Shown piece after piece: positions 7,396-19,856 of a stretch of 20,860 bases of DNA (position 1 is the first letter of the stretch; each line of letters opens with the position of its first letter). The DNA is taken from the IMG/VR virus record IMGVR_UViG_3300045738_000519, positions 1 to 20,860 of that record. The stretch is one strand, 5' to 3'. The notes under the pieces are model-generated. The model saw only the letters and a list, made by a program, of their open reading frames with translations, was not told the DNA's origin and ran no database searches. The position numbers and the translations under genes were made by a program. Source of the stretch: a virus.

Positions 7396-8981
7396 TGCTT
7401 CGCGACCTTCTCGGCCTCGACCAGGCCGTCGACCAGGCGCGAACGCAACCGCAACGCACTCCGCACCGGCCGCGATCGCGTGCGAGCTCATGGGATCCAG
7501 TCGACTCCGGTCGGCTCTTCAGCAACTTCGGGACCTCGAACCTCTCGGCCGATGAAGAAGTGAAACTTCGGCTCGAGAAAGAGCGCGCGCGATCGCGACA
7601 ACTCGAGCGCGAGAACCCCTGGGCCGTTCGTTACTTCACCCTATACGTCCAGAACGTGCTCGGCGACGCCGGGATCCGCCTGGTGCCGCGCGTGTTCGAC
7701 CAGGCCGCCGATGGGAAACAGGTCCCCGACCGCGACGCGAACAAACAGATCCGCGACGCCTGGGCGCGATGGGGCAAGCGGGGATCGCCGACCGTCGACG
7801 GCCGGCACTCTTGGGACACCGCGCTCGCGTGCATGGCCAAGAGTTACAAACGCGACGGCGAGGCTCTGCTCCGGATCTACCGCGGCGGCGAGTTTGGCGA
7901 GTTTGGCTACCAGGTCCAGCTCCGCGAGTCCGATCATCTTCCGATGACCTTGAACCGCGACTTCGGTCCAGGCATCGAAACCGGACACCGGATCCGGATG
8001 GGGATTGAGTTCGATCCGTTCGACAAGCCGGTCGCCTATTGGCTCAACGCTCGACACCCCGGCGCACCTCGAGGCGTGACGCTCGACCGCTTCACCCGCG
8101 TCCCGGCTGACGAGATCATTCACCTCTACGATCAGAAGCGGATCGACCAGTCGCGCGGCTTGCCTTCACTCGAGGCCGGGATCGCTCGGCTCTCAATGCT
8201 GCAAGGCTACGAAGAAGCGGAGCTCGTCGCGGCGCGCGCCGGCGCGTCGAAGATGGGCTTTATCCAGTCGGGCGACGGGAACGAATACGAAGGCGAAGCG
8301 GACGCGACCTACGACGACGACGAGATCGTCGAAGAGTTTTCACCGGGCACGATCGCGCAGCTCGGCGAGGGGCAAGAGTTTGTCGCCTGGGATCCGACGC
8401 ATCCGAACAGCGCCTTCGGCGACTTCGTCAAAAACGCGCTTCGCGCCTTCTTCTCGGTCGGCGGCGCGAGTTACAACTCGGGCGCGAACGACCTCGAGGG
8501 GGTCAACTTTTCGAGCCTGCGGGATGGAAAGCTAACCGAGCGCGACACCTGGCGACTCGAGCAGGAGCTCTTGATCGACATCGTATGCCGGCCGGTTTTC
8601 GAGTCTTGGCTTCCCCAGGCGATGCTCGGCCGCGCGATCGACCTGCCACTCGACAAGCTCGAGAAGTTCACCGAGCACCGCTGGCAGGGCCGCCGCTGGG
8701 AATGGGTGGACCCGGCGAAGGAAGCGACCGGGCACAAGATCCAGCTCGAGAACCGCACGACGACGGTCTCGCGGATCCTCGAGTCGCAAGGCCGGGACCT
8801 GCGCGATCACCTCGAGGAGCTCGCGCTCGAGATCGACCTGGCCGAGGAGCTCGGGCTCGAGAGCCTTCTCCCCTACGCCGCGCCGGCTGTGACAGATCCG
8901 GTCACACCGGCCGCTCCGCCTGGTCCGCCGGCACCGGACGAAGACGAACCCGAAGACCTCGAGGATCTCGATGAAGACTAA
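7395..8981 (+). CDS. Portal protein, lambda family
   Basis: 528 aa forming the ring at the special vertex through which DNA enters and leaves. It starts at ATG 7395 sharing a base with the upstream stop (TAATG). Family features: an N-terminal ERENPWAVRYFTLYVQNVLG segment (about 71-90) followed by GIRLVPRV, the typical 'N..a......nvvG.Gi.l' core; SYKRDGEALLRIYR (about 150-163); PVAYWLNARHPG; the ADEIIHLYDQKRIDQSRGLP wing (about 236-255), the 'H.f...RpgQ.RG.p' signature; and NFSSLRDGKL (the 'nySSlR.....' motif) with W at the expected spot. The C terminus is Pro/Asp/Glu-rich and disordered. It overlaps the next gene by 11 bases. Length is normal for the family. Confidence 0.93.
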   Translation: MLRDLLGLDQAVDQARTQPQRTPHRPRSRASSWDPVDSGRLFSNFGTSNLSADEEVKLRLEKERARSRQLERENPWAVRYFTLYVQNVLGDAGIRLVPRVFDQAADGKQVPDRDANKQIRDAWARWGKRGSPTVDGRHSWDTALACMAKSYKRDGEALLRIYRGGEFGEFGYQVQLRESDHLPMTLNRDFGPGIETGHRIRMGIEFDPFDKPVAYWLNARHPGAPRGVTLDRFTRVPADEIIHLYDQKRIDQSRGLPSLEAGIARLSMLQGYEEAELVAARAGASKMGFIQSGDGNEYEGEADATYDDDEIVEEFSPGTIAQLGEGQEFVAWDPTHPNSAFGDFVKNALRAFFSVGGASYNSGANDLEGVNFSSLRDGKLTERDTWRLEQELLIDIVCRPVFESWLPQAMLGRAIDLPLDKLEKFTEHRWQGRRWEWVDPAKEATGHKIQLENRTTTVSRILESQGRDLRDHLEELALEIDLAEELGLESLLPYAAPAVTDPVTPAAPPGPPAPDEDEPEDLEDLDED

Positions 8982-11100
8982 AAGCAAGCGACTCGCGCGC
9001 AATCAAAGGTCGGTAAAGCTCGGGCTCCAGGTCCGCACCGGCACGATCGAGCACCGCGAAGACGGCGACGGCGACGGCGAGACGATCGAGTTCAGCTTCT
9101 CGAGCGAGCTCCCCTATCGCCGCTATTTCGGCCTGGAGATTCTCGGCCACAAAAAGAGCGAGGTCCGGCTCGACGCGCTCAACGACGCGGCGCCGTTCCT
9201 GAAGGATCACGACACGCGGCAACAAATCGGCGTCGTCGAAAAAGCCTGGCTAACTGGCCGGCGAGGTTTAACGGTCGCGAGGTTTGGAAAAACCAACGCG
9301 GCCGTCGAAGAGCAGGGCGAAGTCTCCGGAAGGATCCGGACGAAGATCTCGGTCGGCTACCTGGTGCACGAAATGGTCCTGACGAAAACGGTCGACGATG
9401 TCGATCACTATCGCGTAACGGACTGGGAACCGCTCGAAGTCTCGACTGTAGCGATTCCTGCGGACGGCTCTGTCGGAGTCGGCCGCGACCTCGAGGCGCT
9501 CCCCGCTTTGGCGGAGCGCGTCGCGCAATTTCAAAATCATAAAACCCGCATTGTGCGAGCGCGGGAAGAGAGGATCCAAATGAACGAAATCCGAGTAGCA
9601 CTCAAGTCGACCGGCGTCGTCGTGCTGATCCGTGAAGACGACTTCGACGACGATCTGCACCTGAAACTCGCGCCCGAGCTCGACGCCGCCTCAGTGCCGG
9701 CGATCGCGCCTCGAGTCGAAGTCGGTCGCACCATGACCGAAGACGACGTGAAGCGTATTTCCCAGAAGGCCGCCGGCGAAGCGGCCGACGCCGAGCGATC
9801 GCGGATCGACCAGATCACGAAGCTCGGCCAGAAGTTCAACGCCAGCGACAAGGCGACGAACGCGATCCGAGCGAACGTGTCCTTCGCCGAGTTTCGCGAG
9901 GAGCTCTGGCTCTCCGGCGCGACGCCAGGCGGACGGACCGCAACCGGGGAGCGCGATTATCCCTCGATCGAAGGCAACCCGAACGACTCCGGCATGAGTC
10001 CCGGCGAAGCGCGCGATCAGTATTCGATCCTGCGGGCCGTGCAGTCGATCGTCTGGGACGATCCCTCGATCGCGCCATTCGAGCGCGAAGTGTCGGACGG
10101 CCTGGTCAAGCAGCATGAAGGCCGGCGACCTCGAGGTCTCTGGATGCCGCGCGAGCTCCTGGGCGCACCGATCGTGCCGACCGGCGCCGAGGCCGCACGC
10201 GACGCAATTATGCGCGCTGTCACCGCTGGAACGACCGGCGGGAACCTGGTCGCGACGAACCTGCTCGCGAGCTCTTTTATCGAGCTCCTGCGGAACCGTT
10301 CAGTCGTGCTCGAGCTCGGTGCGACGCTCCTGCCTGGTCTGGTCGGCGACGTCGACATCACGCGCCAGATCACGTCGGGCGCGGCCGCCTGGGTCGCGGA
10401 GTCCGGATCGGCGAGTGATGCCGATCTGACGCTCGACCTGGTCAGCTTGCGACCGAAGACGCTCACCGCGAAGAGCAAGATCACGCGCCGGATGATCCTC
10501 AACGCGACGCCGGCGATCGAAGGCCTCGTGCGCGCCGACCTGGCGAGCGCGATCGCGCTCGGCATCGACACGGCCGGGATCAGCGGCTCGGGATCCGGCG
10601 CAGTGCCGGAAGGGATCCTGAACATGAGTGGCATCGGTGCCGGCTTGTCGCTCGGTGCGAACGGCGGCGCCCAGACCTGGCGCAACCAGGTCGAGCTCGT
10701 GCGTGCGGTCAAGGCCGCAAACGCGGACTCGGGCTCGCTCGGCTGGGCGATCTCGACGAACGCCTGGGCGCATCTGATGGCACGGCCGAAGAGCGGAACC
10801 GACCCGGTCTTCATCCTGTCCGAGCCTGGCGATCGCTCGATCGGCCGGCGCCTAATCGCGTCCGAGCAGGTCCCGAGTAACCTCGTGAAGGCCTCGAGCG
10901 GCACGATCCTGAGCGCGATTATTTACGGCGCCTGGGATCAACTGCTGATCGGCGAGTGGGGTGCGATGGATCTGTTCCCCGATATCTACACAGACGGCGA
11001 CGAGGGGGCGACGATCCTGCGCGTCTTCCAAGACGCCGACATAACGGCACGGCACGAGGACGCCTTTGCGGCTTCGCAGGAAGTGAACACGACCACCTAG
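8971..11100 (+). CDS. Prohead protease-major capsid protein fusion
   Basis: 709 aa in one frame; ATG 8971 has GAGGA (8960-8964) upstream. Residues 1-175 are an HK97/U35-type serine protease: FLKDHD with His80 as the likely catalytic His, KISVGY with Ser127 as the likely nucleophile, and DWEPLEVSTVAIPAD (151-165), the conserved 'P.EiS.V..PAn..A' strand. Residues about 205-330 are charged and scaffold-like (delta domain). Residues about 330-705 are an HK97-fold capsid: LWMPRELLG, VGDVDITRQITSGAAAWVAE (458-477), KTLTAKSKITRRMILNATPA (496-515), IDTAGISGSGSGAVPEGIL (532-550) and C-terminal DITARHEDAFA. The protease cuts the scaffold and then itself. Fused protease-capsid genes are known in phages; here an internal start may also yield the capsid part alone. 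Confidence 0.92.
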   Translation: MKTKSKRLARNQRSVKLGLQVRTGTIEHREDGDGDGETIEFSFSSELPYRRYFGLEILGHKKSEVRLDALNDAAPFLKDHDTRQQIGVVEKAWLTGRRGLTVARFGKTNAAVEEQGEVSGRIRTKISVGYLVHEMVLTKTVDDVDHYRVTDWEPLEVSTVAIPADGSVGVGRDLEALPALAERVAQFQNHKTRIVRAREERIQMNEIRVALKSTGVVVLIREDDFDDDLHLKLAPELDAASVPAIAPRVEVGRTMTEDDVKRISQKAAGEAADAERSRIDQITKLGQKFNASDKATNAIRANVSFAEFREELWLSGATPGGRTATGERDYPSIEGNPNDSGMSPGEARDQYSILRAVQSIVWDDPSIAPFEREVSDGLVKQHEGRRPRGLWMPRELLGAPIVPTGAEAARDAIMRAVTAGTTGGNLVATNLLASSFIELLRNRSVVLELGATLLPGLVGDVDITRQITSGAAAWVAESGSASDADLTLDLVSLRPKTLTAKSKITRRMILNATPAIEGLVRADLASAIALGIDTAGISGSGSGAVPEGILNMSGIGAGLSLGANGGAQTWRNQVELVRAVKAANADSGSLGWAISTNAWAHLMARPKSGTDPVFILSEPGDRSIGRRLIASEQVPSNLVKASSGTILSAIIYGAWDQLLIGEWGAMDLFPDIYTDGDEGATILRVFQDADITARHEDAFAASQEVNTTT
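9567..9582 (+). promoter_or_regulatory. Internal ribosome binding site and ATG inside the protease-capsid gene
   Basis: AGAGAGGA (9567-9574) lies six bases after its GAGG core from an in-frame ATG at 9580 (Met204 of the fusion). Initiation here would give a 506-aa capsid precursor lacking the protease but keeping the scaffold-like region. The spacing is as good as that of genuine gene starts in this window. An AT-richer stretch (about 9529-9547) and a short hairpin (CCCGC 9545-9549 with GCGGG 9561-9565) sit just upstream, as at an intergenic junction. Confidence 0.55.
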
Positions 11101-11867: not shown

Positions 11868-12536
11868 GTGCAGGACCTCACCGCGCTTGAAGCCTCGACG
11901 CAACTCCAGGCGATCCTCCGCGCGACCTGGGCGGCGCATTCAGACTTTGCCGGCGTGCAGATCGACGCGCCTCGCCTGATCGACGTGCCGCCGCAGAGCG
12001 CCGGAGCGAAGCGGATCTCGATCTCGATCAACGAGCTATCAGTCCGCGAGGTCGCAACGGAAGCGCCGAAGGCCTGGATCGTCGACGCGACGCTCTCGGT
12101 GTATTGCCTGGTCGAGTCGCCCTATCCAGAAACCGACACAAGCGGGGATCCGGCGGCGGCCGTGCTCGGCGTGTTGAACCCGTTAGCGATCACAACGGAG
12201 AAGCGTCTCGGGTCGGATCTTCGCGCCATTCGAGAGGTCGACCCGAAGACCTTCCTCTCGTGTCAGTTCTACGACTTCAACTTCGCCAGCTATTCAGCCG
12301 GCGTCGACGACAACGGGCAACGACTTCAGGCGCTCGGGCTCTTCGAGTATCAACTCGGTTTTTTTATTCCCGAATACATCGACACCGAGGACTACTTCCG
12401 ACTGCTAGAAACTAATATTGATTGGAATCTATACGGCGGGATCGGCGACACGATCTTTCCGGAGGAGCCACACGCCGAAGACGATCACACGATCGTCATC
12501 GCCGCGCCGCCGGCGCCTGGACCTACAGGACCCTAA
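11868..12536 (+). CDS. Putative tail terminator or neck protein
   Basis: 222 aa from GTG 11868, four bases after the FII-like stop. I do not recognise a precise family. The fold looks alpha/beta: an N-terminal helix (LEASTQLQAILRATWAAHSD, about 7-26), strands KRISISINELSVRE and KAWIVDATLSVYCLVES (the 'w...a.l.vd..v..' strand seen in gpU-like terminators), a helix ending in EKRLGSD, and a strand pair around GLFEYQLGFFIPE. The C terminus is Pro-rich and probably disordered. In this gene order the place between FII-like joiner and sheath is where the tail terminator or completion protein stands, the ring that stops tail growth and meets the head. Assignment is from position and general shape. 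Confidence 0.62.
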   Translation: MQDLTALEASTQLQAILRATWAAHSDFAGVQIDAPRLIDVPPQSAGAKRISISINELSVREVATEAPKAWIVDATLSVYCLVESPYPETDTSGDPAAAVLGVLNPLAITTEKRLGSDLRAIREVDPKTFLSCQFYDFNFASYSAGVDDNGQRLQALGLFEYQLGFFIPEYIDTEDYFRLLETNIDWNLYGGIGDTIFPEEPHAEDDHTIVIAAPPAPGPTGP

Positions 12537-12909: not shown

Positions 12910-14364
12910 ATGCCTGGCTTTTCAGAAATTCCGATCTCTCTTATGGTCCCTGGCGCTTATGCGGAGGTCGACCCGGTCGTCGCCTCTCAAGGTCCCGGCG
13001 TCTTCCCCCTTCAGGCGCTTATCATCGGCCAGAAGACCTCGGCCGGCACCGTCACCGCGCTAACGCTAACGCCGACGACCTCGGTCGAGCAGGCGCGCGA
13101 GGAGCACGGTCCCGGCTCGATTGGACATCTGCTCGCGAAGGACTGGTTCAGCCAGGGCGGCGGCGTCGCGCTCGACATGATTTGCCAAGACGACGCCTCT
13201 GGCACGCCGGCGGCTTCGACGCACGTCGTCACCGGCACGATCACGGCGCCTGGTGCGGTCCTGATCTATGTCGCCGGCGAGCGAATCTCGATCACAGTTA
13301 GCACCGACGCCTCGACCGCCGCTGGACAGATTCGGACGGCGCTCCAGGCGCTTCCCGATCTTCCCGTCACCGTCACCGGCGCCGGCGCGAATATCATCCT
13401 CACGGCGAACAACGACGGCACAGCGGGCAACTATATCGACATCCGATACAACCATTTGCCGGGCGAGGCGTTTCCCGGCGCTTTGGCGATCACCAATCCG
13501 GTGATGACCTCCGGCGCGACCGATCCGGTCGTCTCGGCGGTATTCGCCGCGATCGCGGGCAAGCGTTACGACGTGATCGTCTCGGCCTTTACCGACACAA
13601 CGAGCCTGAACCTTATCCAGACCGAGCTCGAGGCGCGCGCGGTCGCCCTGGTCGGACATCCGGGAATGCACTTCTCGGCGACGGCGAACATACACGGGAG
13701 TCTCGTCTCGCAGGGCGACGCTCGGAATAACAAATTTGAAGTTCTTATCGGGATGGAAGTGCAACCCGTCTGGCCGCAGATGCGCGCGGCCGGCGTCGCT
13801 GCCCAGGCGGCGATCCTCTTGCAAGAGGATCCCGTTCGACCGCTCACCGGCCGCAAGCTCCTCGCCGGCCAGGGACCGGCCGAGTCGGACAAGTTCACAA
13901 CGGCCGAGCGCGACCTGCTTCTTCACGATGGGATCTCGACGCTCCGCTACCAGGCCGGCAACCGGGCGACGATCGAACGCCTGATTACGACCTACCAGGA
14001 GACGAGCGGCGGATCTCCCGACACGGCCTTCCTCGACGTGCAAACGGCCTTCGGCCTGGCCTTCCTGCGCCGCTCGTATGTCGCGCACTTCGACATCCAG
14101 TTCGCGTCGCACAAGCTCGCCGCAAATGGCACGCCGATCGGGCCGGGCTCGGTCACGGTCACGCCCGAGATCGCGAAGGCCGACGCGGTCGCCTGGTATT
14201 CGGCGCAAGTGACCGAGGGCGTCGCCGAGGATCTCGAGGGCTTCAAGACGAACACGACCTTCCAGATCGCAAGCGCAGATCCGAACCGCCTCGAGGGATT
14301 CCTCGCGGTGAACCTACAGAACCAGCTTCGCGTTTCCGCGACGCTCTTCCAGTTCGCACGCTAG
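12910..14364 (+). CDS. Contractile tail sheath protein (Mu gpL-like)
   Basis: 484 aa, close to the 495 aa of Mu gpL. N terminus PISLMVPGAYAEVDPVVASQ (8-27) is the classical 'ip.s.r.PG.y.Ei' start that links sheath subunits; QALIIGQKTSAGT follows as the first core strand, then DWFSQGGGVALDM. Residues about 105-200 are a beta-rich insertion (TVTGAGANIILTANNDGTAG) typical of the gpL subfamily. YDVIVSAFTD, DARNNKFEVLIG, GRKLLAGQ, YVAHFDIQFASHKLA and the C-terminal RLEGFLAVNLQNQLRVSATL strand fit the conserved sheath core. It assembles around the tube and contracts on infection. Ribosome binding site GGAAGGAG lies about ten bases upstream, overlapping the end of the DUF2635 gene. Confidence 0.92.
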   Translation: MPGFSEIPISLMVPGAYAEVDPVVASQGPGVFPLQALIIGQKTSAGTVTALTLTPTTSVEQAREEHGPGSIGHLLAKDWFSQGGGVALDMICQDDASGTPAASTHVVTGTITAPGAVLIYVAGERISITVSTDASTAAGQIRTALQALPDLPVTVTGAGANIILTANNDGTAGNYIDIRYNHLPGEAFPGALAITNPVMTSGATDPVVSAVFAAIAGKRYDVIVSAFTDTTSLNLIQTELEARAVALVGHPGMHFSATANIHGSLVSQGDARNNKFEVLIGMEVQPVWPQMRAAGVAAQAAILLQEDPVRPLTGRKLLAGQGPAESDKFTTAERDLLLHDGISTLRYQAGNRATIERLITTYQETSGGSPDTAFLDVQTAFGLAFLRRSYVAHFDIQFASHKLAANGTPIGPGSVTVTPEIAKADAVAWYSAQVTEGVAEDLEGFKTNTTFQIASADPNRLEGFLAVNLQNQLRVSATLFQFAR

Positions 14365-14393: not shown

Positions 14394-14768
14394 ATGGCAG
14401 CTCCGGGAATTGTGAAGGCCGGCGTCGCGTCGATGCGCGTCAATGGCAAACCCGTCACCGTGATGGGGAATATCGTAGTAAATCTCGGAACCGAGAAGCG
14501 CGAAACCCTACAGTCGGCGACGGGACCAGTCGGCTACAAGGCGGAGAGCGGCACGCCGTCGCTCACCTTCGAGTCGGTCTTCGACTCGAGCGTCGACATC
14601 CGAGAGCTCTATGAGCTCTCCGGAATCCCGATCACCGTCACGCTCCGCGACGGGACCTCGTTCGCCTTCGCTAACGCCTGGAGCCTGGGCGAAGGCGACC
14701 TCGAGAGCGAAGAAGGGAAACTCGCGCTCGTCTTTAACGCACTGACCGCGGAACAAATCACCGCATAA
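14394..14768 (+). CDS. Tail tube protein (Mu gpM-like)
   Basis: 124 aa, matching the roughly 118 aa of Mu gpM. AAGGAG (14379-14384) is nine bases from ATG 14394; an out-of-frame ATG at 14387 is too close. Sequence is almost entirely beta: GVASMRVNGKPVTVMGN, RETLQSATGPVGYKAESGTP, SLTFESVFDSSVDIRELY, ITVTLRDGTSFAFANAW, then GDLESEEGKLALVFNA, the conserved end of Mu-type tube proteins ('g.....d.eeG.....f.g'). Hexamers stack to form the inner tube through which DNA passes. It lies directly after the sheath gene, as in Mu. Confidence 0.9.
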   Translation: MAAPGIVKAGVASMRVNGKPVTVMGNIVVNLGTEKRETLQSATGPVGYKAESGTPSLTFESVFDSSVDIRELYELSGIPITVTLRDGTSFAFANAWSLGEGDLESEEGKLALVFNALTAEQITA

Positions 14769-14780
14769 AAAGGGGAACCA

Positions 14781-15164
14781 ATGGCGAATAAGGACCGGCA
14801 AATCGAGAAGACGATCGAGCTCACCGGCACGATTCACGCCTTCGGCGAGGAGTCGGGCGAGCTCGTCTTTTACGAACCGAGGGCGGAGCTCTTGCGATCC
14901 ATCGAAGCGAACGACCAGGCCGGCGAGCAAAGCCTCGCGATTGTTTCCGAGCTCACTGGCGTTCCGATGGAACAGCTCGACGATCTGAGCCTCACCGATG
15001 GCATGATCGCGATCGGGGTAGGCGCGGACATCGTAAAAAAAAGTTCAGACCAGGCGCAGGAGATTCTCAAGTCGCTCGGGATCCTCGACGAAGACGACGA
15101 GGAAGAAGAAGCGCAAGAGCGCGAAGCAGGCGCGCCGGGCGCGACGAAGAAGCTAAATTCGTGA
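14781..15164 (+). CDS. Tail assembly chaperone (E/41/14 family)
   Basis: 127 aa from ATG 14781 behind AAAAGGGG. KTIELTGTIHAFGEESGELV then FYEPRAELLRSIEA and LAIVSELTGVPMEQLDDLSL (52-71) match the P2 gpE/Mu gp41/HK97 gp14-type chaperone: a strand pair with 'l..P......' followed by 'l..l.g.....v..l...D'. Such proteins keep the tape measure in solution while the tail is built. The C terminus is very acidic (DEDDEEEEAQE). The gene carries an A8 run at 15035-15042 giving an in-frame A AAA AAA heptamer at Lys86-Lys87, and the -1 frame stays open into the next small ORF, the classical arrangement for a frameshifted chaperone pair. TGA at 15162-15164 overlaps a GTG at 15161. Confidence 0.88.
   Translation: MANKDRQIEKTIELTGTIHAFGEESGELVFYEPRAELLRSIEANDQAGEQSLAIVSELTGVPMEQLDDLSLTDGMIAIGVGADIVKKSSDQAQEILKSLGILDEDDEEEEAQEREAGAPGATKKLNS
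15035..15041 (+). other. Candidate -1 ribosomal frameshift site (A AAA AAA)
   Basis: The heptamer A AAA AAA is in the correct register: AAA AAA are codons 86 and 87 of the chaperone. A slip back by one base continues with AAG at 15041 and stays open to TAA 15326-15328, giving a 182-aa product (87 + 95 residues). Purine-rich GGGGTAGG (15015-15022) lies 12 bases upstream and could act like the Shine-Dalgarno-like stimulator of dnaX. Runs of eight A are rare in this GC-rich sequence, where Lys is mostly AAG. Confidence 0.6.
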
Positions 15165-15328
15165 TCTTGCGGCTCTGGCGCCTCGAGGCAAACTGGCGCG
15201 ATCCGTTTGGTCTCTTGGCGATGGTTTTCGGCTGGACTCCGGCGGAGCTCTTCGACTTGACGCTTCGCGAGTTCGACGCCTGGGTGCTCCAGGCTAAGAA
15301 GTGGGGACCTCATGGCCGGAAAGCGTAA
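15161..15328 (+). CDS. Tail chaperone extension (gpE'/gpT-like), frameshift partner
   Basis: A small frame of 55 codons from GTG 15161, lying in the -1 frame relative to the chaperone. Its product includes NWRDPFGLLAMVFGWTPAEL (11-30) and FDLTLREFDAWVLQAKK (31-47). This 'lA..fgW.p.el..mtl.El..W...A' pattern matches the downstream half of frameshifted chaperones (P2 E', lambda T), which bind the tape measure. It ends 17 bases inside the tape measure gene, also typical. It may be made as a fusion through the A AAA AAA site or on its own by reinitiation at the GTGA overlap (15161-15164); the sequence allows both. In the fusion, the linker between the two halves is strikingly Arg-rich. Confidence 0.75.
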   Translation: MILRLWRLEANWRDPFGLLAMVFGWTPAELFDLTLREFDAWVLQAKKWGPHGRKA

Positions 15329-16856
15329 AGCAAAATTCCAGGTCCTCCTCGCGGCCGTCGACAAGGTCTCGGCACCGATCCGCAAGATGAACCGCTCGAT
15401 CGAGAAACTGACCCGGCCGATTCAGAAACTCAAACGCCAGATGAGCTCGCTCGCCAGGGAAGCCGGCTTTAAGAAACTGGGCGGCGCGATCGCCGGCGTC
15501 GGAAAGCAGTTCGCGAAGCTCGCGCTCGTCGGCGCGGTCGCGGTCGCCGGGCTGTTCCGCGCACTCGATCGCACGTCGAAGACGATGGACACGCTCGCGA
15601 AGACAACGCGCGCCCTGAATTTCCCTGTCGAAGAGTTCCAAAAGTGGAAACAGGTCTCACAACTGGCCGGCGTCGGCGCCGAAAACTTCGACAAGTCGAT
15701 CCAAAAACTGTCGAAGAATATCGGCGAGCTCCGACTGAACACCGGCACGATGTCGACGATCCTCGACAAGGCAGACCCGGCTTTCAAAAAGCAGCTCGTC
15801 AACGCAAAGAACAACGCCGAGGCCTTCGACCTCGTGATCGACAAGATGCGAAGCCTCACCTCTGCCCAGGACCGAGCGGCACTGGCGAACGCGGCCTTCG
15901 GGCGCGGCGGCAAAGAGCTCATCAACGTCGCGAACCTGTCGGCGAAAGAGATCGCCAAGCTCAAGGAACAGGTCTCCGGACGCGGCGGAATAATCTCGAG
16001 CGAGGCACTCGCGAACGCGGAGACCTTTCAAGACTCGCTGCTTCTCGTGAAGACGGCGATCGGAAATATATGGAGCGAGATCGCGGGGAACCTTTTCCCG
16101 GTCGTCTCGAAGATGATGGACGGCGTCCGCGAGTGGGCGACCGCCAACAAAGAGTTGATTCAGGTCAAAGTAACCGACTTTATTCGCGGCGCGATCGACG
16201 CCGGCAAGAAGATGATCGAAGTCTTCAGGGAATGGGGACCGAAAGTCTGGAATATCGTCAAGTCTCTTGGCGGCCTGAAATTTATCTTGGGGCTGGTCGG
16301 CGCGATCACCCTCGCACCGTTAGTGCTCGCGATTCTAGGAGTCGGCGCCGCACTGATCCCCGTGATCGCTTCGGTCGGCACTTTGGGCTTGGCCTTTCTG
16401 GTCGCACTGGGGCCGGTCGGCTTGCTCGTGCTCGGTATTGCCGCAGTCGTTACGGCGCTCGTTCTTAACTTCGACAAGATCAAAAACTTCTTCCTGAGCA
16501 CCAAAATCGGCGGCGCGGTCGGGAAACTGTTTTCCGGCGAAGGCGGGATAGCTTCGCTCAAGGCGAGCAACGAGGCGCAGGGTATCGGCGTTGGCGTCGG
16601 CGGGAACGGGTCGCTCAAAGCGAGCAACGAGGCGCAGGGCATCGTCGGCGTCGGCGGGATAGCTTCGCTCAAGGCTATGCTCGAGGCGCAGAATATCGGC
16701 GTCGCCGGCGCGGAAACACCGGCACCGGCCGGACCAGGCGGACCGATCGAGCTCGTGATGCGCGTCGACCAGGCGGGCACCGTGACCGGGATCGAGCCGG
16801 AGACCGATAGCGAGCTCACGATCGCCAGCGAAGGCCTGGCCGGAGAGGCTTTCTAA
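15312..16856 (+). CDS. Tail tape measure protein
   Basis: 514 aa from ATG 15312 behind GGGGA. N terminus FQVLLAAVDKVSAPIRKMNR then SIEKLTRPIQKLKRQMSSLA is the usual helical start of Mu-type tape measures. Residues 85-260 contain the phage tail tape measure core: LDRTSKTMDTLAKTTRALNF, the FQKWKQVSQLAGVGAENFDK motif, then ALANAAFGRGGKELIN (189-204) and ETFQDSLLLVKTAIGNIWSE. A long hydrophobic region (about 320-387) would form several membrane-inserting helices, used at DNA delivery. Residues 411-465 are three near-identical 18-19 residue repeats. The protein sets tail length; at about 1.5 angstrom per residue 514 aa suggests a short tail near 75-80 nm. Its start overlaps the chaperone extension. 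Confidence 0.92.
   Translation: MAGKRKAKFQVLLAAVDKVSAPIRKMNRSIEKLTRPIQKLKRQMSSLAREAGFKKLGGAIAGVGKQFAKLALVGAVAVAGLFRALDRTSKTMDTLAKTTRALNFPVEEFQKWKQVSQLAGVGAENFDKSIQKLSKNIGELRLNTGTMSTILDKADPAFKKQLVNAKNNAEAFDLVIDKMRSLTSAQDRAALANAAFGRGGKELINVANLSAKEIAKLKEQVSGRGGIISSEALANAETFQDSLLLVKTAIGNIWSEIAGNLFPVVSKMMDGVREWATANKELIQVKVTDFIRGAIDAGKKMIEVFREWGPKVWNIVKSLGGLKFILGLVGAITLAPLVLAILGVGAALIPVIASVGTLGLAFLVALGPVGLLVLGIAAVVTALVLNFDKIKNFFLSTKIGGAVGKLFSGEGGIASLKASNEAQGIGVGVGGNGSLKASNEAQGIVGVGGIASLKAMLEAQNIGVAGAETPAPAGPGGPIELVMRVDQAGTVTGIEPETDSELTIASEGLAGEAF
16542..16706 (+). repeat. Three tandem repeats in the tape measure gene
   Basis: Units at 16542-16598 (57 bp), 16599-16652 (54 bp) and 16653-16706 (54 bp), all in frame, encode GG..SLKA..EAQ.I-type units of 19, 18 and 18 residues. 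Units 1 and 2 share SLKASNEAQGI; unit 3 has SLKAMLEAQNI but keeps the unit 1 start at DNA level. They lie after the hydrophobic region. In-frame repeats of this kind can expand or contract by recombination, so copy number may vary between relatives. Confidence 0.8.
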
Positions 16857-19257: not shown

Positions 19258-19856
19258 GCGCGATCGGCCAGGAGTTGAAGCGCGCGATCCGCAAGCGGAT
19301 CGGCGCAATGATAAACCGCTTCCTCGTAGCCGCGATCGACGACACCGGGCTCGATGCTCGAGGGATCGAGTCACACCAGCGAGTCGACGGGACGATCTTC
19401 GACGCGGAGGCACTTCACCGAGGCGCCTCGCACTTCCAGGCCTACGGTATGAGCTCGCACCCTAAGATCGGCGCCGAAGGGATCGCGCTCCAGATCGGAG
19501 GATCTCGAGGTCGCCTGGCCGTGCTCAATGTCGACGATCCGCGCGCGCGGCCGACCGGCCTGGTCGAGGGCGAAGTTCAGATCTACACCGACGAAGGTCT
19601 CGTTTTGCACGCGAAGCGCGGCCGCATCGTCTACGTGCGCGGCACGACGCTCGACCTCGAGACGACCGGCGCGGCGAAGGTGAAATCGAGCGCCGGAGAA
19701 GCGCGGCTCGAAGGAACGACGGTGGTCCTGGTCGGCTCGGTCACGATCGACGGGATCGACTGGGCAACTCACGCGCACGACGCGACCGGCGGGACGCCTC
19801 CCTTCACCGACTCGGTCTCAGGCGCGTGCTCAGGGAAAACGGGGCCGCCTGTCTAA
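19254..19856 (+). CDS. Baseplate spike/assembly protein (Mu gp45-like)
   Basis: 200 aa from ATG 19254 (ATGA overlap with gp44-like); Mu gp45 is 197 aa. The first 100 residues are the OB-like attachment part (IGAMINRFLVAAIDDTG, QAYGMSSHPKIGAEGIALQI, then RLAVLNVDDPRARP). From about 105 the short beta repeats EGEVQIYTDEGLVLHAKRGR and VYVRGTTLDLETTGAAKVKS form the triple-stranded beta helix of the membrane-piercing spike. The THAHD motif at 172-176 has the HxH (173/175) that in P2 gpV-type spikes holds a metal ion near the tip. It acts as the needle on baseplate contraction. Confidence 0.9.
   Translation: MSAIGQELKRAIRKRIGAMINRFLVAAIDDTGLDARGIESHQRVDGTIFDAEALHRGASHFQAYGMSSHPKIGAEGIALQIGGSRGRLAVLNVDDPRARPTGLVEGEVQIYTDEGLVLHAKRGRIVYVRGTTLDLETTGAAKVKSSAGEARLEGTTVVLVGSVTIDGIDWATHAHDATGGTPPFTDSVSGACSGKTGPPV

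Follow-up and report, generated by a model that had tools for sequence, protein, structure and literature searches.

A probable frameshift of the P2 E/E+E' type in the tail chaperone of an uncultured, Mu-tailed phage

Between the tail tube and tape measure genes of an uncultured phage lie a chaperone gene and, overlapping its end, a short reading frame, which raises the question of whether this frame is a gene of its own or the end of a longer chaperone made by frameshifting. The sequence studied is a virus record of 20,860 bp (hereafter the window), which carries a contractile tail module of the Mu type. The sheath gene (12910-14364) precedes the tail tube protein gene (14394-14768; PF10618 Tail_tube, E 1.4e-17), which like all features of the chaperone unit and the tape measure gene lies on the plus strand. 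The chaperone unit sits between the tail tube gene and the tail tape measure protein gene (15312-16856; phrog_8125 tape measure, E 3.6e-42), and baseplate genes are located downstream of the latter. Upstream of the Mu-type tail, one 709-aa frame (8971-11100) joins a prohead protease-like region, whose PF04586 match is below the cut-off, with a major capsid protein (PF05065).

The unshifted chaperone (14781-15164) is composed of 127 residues and appears to resemble P2 E and Mu gp41, as judged by a PF10109 match below the cut-off and by fold. The Phage_TAC_7 profile PF10109 (cut-off 25) gives 19.8 bits for the window, 25.4 and 25.6 bits for the related contigs L002 and L008, and 13.9 bits for a third, L003. 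Profile-profile comparison of the window chaperone with P2-like E proteins yields a probability of 63% (E 7e-5), and its best fold match in BFVD is the tape-measure chaperone of Burkholderia phage Mica (probability 1.00, E 1.3e-3); a fold search of the PDB with the same model returned nothing significant. In the AlphaFold model the folded part ends at about residue 98, and the remainder is predicted to be disordered. The position of the protein and the gene order fit a P2 E-type unit.

The -1 frame contains no stop from 15041 up to the stop codon at 15326-15328. This extension of 95 codons plus stop (15041-15328) comprises a linker and a GpE'-like domain, and homologous extensions are found in L002, L003, and L008. 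Its distal part coincides with a 55-codon ORF (15161-15328), which starts with GTG, contains a GpE'-like motif, overlaps the chaperone stop as GTGA, and overlaps the ATG of the tape measure gene (15312) by 17 bases. Phage_P2_GpE (PF06528) matches the window extension with 27.1 bits, above the curated cut-off of 23, while the matches in the other three -1 frames are slightly below it. A first-pass annotation of the window, made from the letters alone, had already described the open -1 frame passing through a gpE'/gpT-like ORF with the 17-base overlap, and both descriptions hold. The predicted structure of the extension is of low confidence (pLDDT 52). As statistical evidence, the openness of the -1 frame is weak in this GC-rich genome, where 68% of stretches of 41 codons taken from the window's genes lack a stop in -1; under synonymous shuffling the frame stays open with a probability of 0.23 in the window, 0.12 in L002, 0.35 in L003, and 0.08 in L008.

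A switch into this frame could take place at an A8 run (15035-15042), which is the sole A-run of at least seven bases in the entire window. The chaperone frame reads the region as GTA AAA AAA AGT, so that the heptamer A_AAA_AAA (15035-15041) is in register and its two AAA codons (15036-15041) specify chaperone residues 86-87, within the last helix of the model. The coordinates and the register agree with those given in the first-pass annotation. From the slip to the -1 stop are 95 codons, giving a predicted fusion of 182 aa with V-K-K-K-F at the junction and a predicted junction peptide in the ADIVKKKFRPGAGD region. Outside the chaperone, none of the Lys-Lys dipeptides is written as A_AAA_AAA (0/8 in the window, 0/4 in L002, 0/2 in L003), and at the window's codon usage Val-Lys-Lys would be written GTA-AAA-AAA with a probability of roughly 0.061 x 0.269 x 0.269 = 0.004. 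The wording of the slip site goes beyond chance. A second homopolymer heptamer, T_TTT_TTT, occurs in register at 12359-12365, 59 codons before the end of the gene at 11868-12536; it is probably there by chance, because the L002 homologue encodes GFY where the window has GFF and the heptamer is not conserved.

Searching IMG/VR with the sheath, the tape measure, and the chaperone yielded three related contigs: L002, whose sheath is 62% identical to that of the window, L003, with a sheath identity of 48%, and L008/L005, in which the tape measure is 55% identical. The chaperone query by itself found no relatives among viral contigs or phages, tape-measure and sheath profiles found none in GTDB genomes, and among phage records the sheath matches do not exceed 36% identity. 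In L002 and L008 the slip site reads GTA AAA AAA AAT (A9), and in L003 it reads CAA AAA AAA CAC (A8). Positions 15035-15041 are invariant in the DNA alignment of the four loci, and in each contig, as far as its sequence is available, the run at the slip is the only one of seven or more A. These runs represent only three independent lineages, L002 and L008 being close. Particularly, the L003 chaperone is only 34-35% identical to that of the window and even the codon before the run differs (CAA instead of GTA); at this distance synonymous bases are expected to have drifted, and the run is nonetheless kept. In all four loci the -1 frame is open from the slip into a GpE'-like domain, and a GpE-family domain is detected in each. 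The slip site, the open -1 frame, the GpE'-like domain, and the gene order are thus conserved.

The first-pass annotation, in proposing that the tail chaperone gene undergoes a programmed -1 frameshift, had named stops in the -1 frame of homologues, or a missing A-run, as findings that would speak against this proposal. None of the three homologous contigs has a -1 stop between the slip and GpE', all three carry A_AAA_AAA at the homologous codons, and the proposal gains support from them. It is likely that a -1 frameshift of the P2 E/E+E' type on the A-run makes a longer chaperone-GpE' protein, and the 55-codon ORF is probably not a separate gene.

The slip can be placed relative to those of seven P2-like or Mu-like phages (P2, KS14, Menos, Bacillus ZY1, Halomonas 4908, Klebsiella CP052639, and Bordetella PBb001). 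As a positive control, the scan recovers the P2 T6G heptamer at 19678-19684, ending one base before the annotated site at 19685. In 7/7 of these phages T_TTT_TTG is located 10 residues past an Asp that is invariant across an alignment of eleven chaperones. In the window clade the slip lies 12-13 residues past this Asp, that is, within 2-3 residues of the P2-like position; identity in the alignment is only about 20%, but no gap falls between the Asp and the slip. The first-pass annotation had regarded the slip as oddly early, exchanging an acidic tail for an Arg-rich linker. The exchange stands. The early position was rejected on alignment with the P2-like E proteins: the slip of the window clade is not early, because the heptamer occupies the matching position after the conserved Asp in an ungapped stretch, and it is the unshifted tail that is longer. 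From the slip to the chaperone stop there are 33-40 codons in the window clade and 6-16 in the P2-like phages, and from the slip to the FGW motif 60-65 and 17-35 residues, respectively.

The unit shares several features with P2 E/E+E'. In both, a chaperone gene, whose PF10109 match in the window is just under the cut-off, lies between tail tube and tape measure; its -1 extension closes with a GpE (PF06528) domain and overlaps the beginning of the tape measure gene; and a single heptamer stands in register at corresponding places of the chaperone core. The differences from P2 lie in the heptamer (T_TTT_TTG in P2, A_AAA_AAA in the window), in the distance from the slip to the chaperone stop (6 codons in P2 versus 33-40 in the window clade) and to the FGW/FHW motif (25 residues versus 60-65), and in the tail proteins, which in the window are of the Mu type. 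T_TTT_TTG, the common trait of the P2-like set, is thus absent at the window slip. T7G and T7C have been reported in P2-like phages and prophages (PMC3931495), and T_TTT_TTC occurs in two further IMG/VR contigs, L025 and L026; because the heptamer varies in this way, the window slip marks a variant. By its architecture, the unit appears to belong with the P2 E/E+E' frameshift and is predicted to work like it.

The best cultured sheath relative is the Mu-like Bordetella phage PBb001, which has the same Mu-type tail module, a PF10109 chaperone with a GpE'-like -1 extension, and its slip 10 residues past the conserved Asp. It differs in its T6G heptamer and post-slip tail of 10 codons, and its sheath is only 36% identical. 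The published PBb001 record annotates the chaperone alone, so a frameshift product appears to be missing from it; an open -1 frame with the T6G slip and the GpE'-like domain (L016 4689-4847) fills the gap before the tape measure. More remote are L025 and L026, whose tail tubes are 25-26% identical to that of the window. Both have a PF10109 chaperone above the cut-off, an in-register heptamer 10 residues past the Asp, and an open -1 frame that runs into a short domain containing FW, upstream of the tape measure, with 10 (L025) and 23 (L026) codons from slip to chaperone stop. They differ from the window in the T_TTT_TTC slip and in a -1 domain without PF06528 match. These slips are located at 2884-2890 in L025 and 3608-3614 in L026, and the -1 domain contains FWRLDP.

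Frameshifting in the phage lambda G/G-T unit takes place at GGGAAAG. There, too, a minor extended form arises by -1 slippage near the end of a tail chaperone gene (PMC5009743), but the T domain is of another kind and the tail is long and non-contractile. TP901-1 also has the heptamer GGGAAAG (PMC4493119). The same type of heptamer as in the window is found in unrelated genes, at the bacterial A_AAA_AAA and A_AAA_AAG frameshift sites of dnaX and the chelatase cluster. In a reporter, A-runs of 7, 9, and 11 gave 10%, 40%, and 63% frameshifting (PMC3711429).

The longer protein could also arise without any slip of the ribosome, if RNA polymerase added an A within the A8 or A9 run in some transcripts and normal translation then made the fusion. 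All four loci have such a run, and the fusion would be identical at the junction (V-K-K-K-F). In addition, A-runs longer than seven are used in programmed transcriptional realignment according to the GeneTack study (PMC3711429), and the A11 run of Citrobacter tssM is a proven case of transcriptional slippage (PMC4256274). A run of eight is nevertheless short for efficient polymerase slippage. Moreover, the bases common to all runs are exactly the in-register A_AAA_AAA, which polymerase slippage does not need, although this argument is weak given the length of the run over two Lys codons. The heptamers T6C and T6G at the matching place in relatives and P2-like phages suit ribosomal rather than polymerase slippage; because of them ribosomal slippage is favored, and we consider the transcriptional explanation, though a real rival, unlikely.

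Translational coupling would instead yield a separate 55-aa protein, by re-initiation at the GTG at 15161. The GTGA overlap, in which the first-pass annotation saw this alternative, is indeed present in the window; a GTG also follows shortly past the chaperone stop in L002 and L003, and P2 E' likewise has a possible GUG start, lacking a ribosome binding site (PMC3931495). Re-initiation itself fits the relatives poorly. The overlap is absent from L002, L003, and L008. In L008, the first ATG, GTG, or TTG that the -1 frame offers after the slip is an ATG within the GpE' core, 78 bases downstream of the chaperone stop, yet the residues preceding this ATG (LFFQLWTLDEDWRDPFG) match those of L002 (VFFIVWRLDEDWREPFG). 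L026 likewise has an internal ATG as its sole start. Shine-Dalgarno pairing at the candidate starts amounts to -0.4 to -3.0 kcal/mol (-0.4 for the window GTG), compared with -4.7 to -9.8 kcal/mol at the neighboring real starts examined. Since re-initiation also leaves the conserved A-run unexplained, this route is very improbable. That a Lys-Lys pair merely fell into an A-run and the -1 frame is accidentally open beside a short non-functional ORF draws on the commonness of open -1 stretches in the window's genes, but the homologues, in which the only A7+ run of each contig is conserved in three lineages and all four -1 frames match the GpE family, appear to have largely refuted this reading, which hardly deserves further credit.

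Ribosomal slippage on the A-run may be assisted by neighboring elements. The purine stretch reported by the first-pass annotation 12 bases upstream corresponds to the Shine-Dalgarno-like GGGGTAGG (15015-15022), a possible stimulator with an anti-SD duplex of about -6.6 kcal/mol; an equally good site occurs in about 8% of comparable stretches. Upstream of the slip, such an element (about -6.5 kcal/mol) is shared by the window, L002, and L008; it was looked for but is absent in L003. In L002 and L008, about 4-6 bases separate the slip from a stem of 8-10 pairs, with hairpin z over 55 bases of -1.0 and -3.2, respectively. Over the same 55 bases, neither the window nor L003 has a downstream RNA structure better than shuffles. 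P2 and P2-like Burkholderia phages are also without downstream hairpins (PMC3091744).

According to the frameshift model, translation of 14781-15164 by most ribosomes would yield the 127-aa chaperone and its acidic tail. In a minority, the two tRNA-Lys on AAA AAA (15036-15041) would slip back one base in tandem, and these ribosomes would read the -1 frame from 15041 to 15328, producing a 182-aa protein composed of the chaperone core, the Arg-rich linker, and the GpE'-like domain. If the two products act as lambda gpG and gpGT do (PMC5009743), the common short form may coat the tape measure protein, while its linkage to the tail tube protein would fall to the rare long form. That ribosomes slip here, how efficiently they do so, and what the two products do is inferred from the sequence.

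The stretch read in both frames has opposite charge in each. The 40-codon acidic tail of the unshifted chaperone (15042-15161) has a net charge of -8, within a range of -7 to -11 across the window clade; when read in -1, this stretch carries +4 to +11, the Arg-rich linker of the window reaching +11. The linker may be a by-product, because in the -1 frame acidic GAN codons are prone to become NGA (Arg, Gly). The synonymous-site comparison proposed in the first-pass annotation was made for L002 and L008, and its pattern of substitutions changes at the slip. Before it, 13/13 substitutions fall on 0-frame third positions; the 9 differences in the 100 bases after it are distributed 1, 4, and 4 over the 0-frame positions; and for those in the GpE' domain, counted by position in the -1 frame, the distribution is 11, 4, and 22, which is what a -1 frame that codes there should show. 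This codon-by-codon comparison covers the close pair L002/L008 only, with too few changes to test dual coding and an overlap too short to establish selection on both frames. As a tentative and rather doubtful idea, the 33-40 post-slip codons may be selected in both frames, giving the common short form an acidic tail and the rare long form a basic, Arg-rich linker, and the two forms may compete or pair on the tape measure protein.

A frameshifted tail chaperone is a well-known phage device; the slippery sequence and the longer overlap are what differ from P2. Automatic annotation would list the 55-aa frame as a separate gene, which it probably is not. With our reading, the E/E+E' frameshift would also occur in a lineage of uncultured phages with Mu-type tails. 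Apparently, the place of the slip in the chaperone can stay the same while the slippery sequence changes (T6G, T6C, A7 or longer), and the two-frame overlap can grow to about 40 codons. If dual coding were true, the short and long chaperones of these phages would differ in charge over one and the same stretch.
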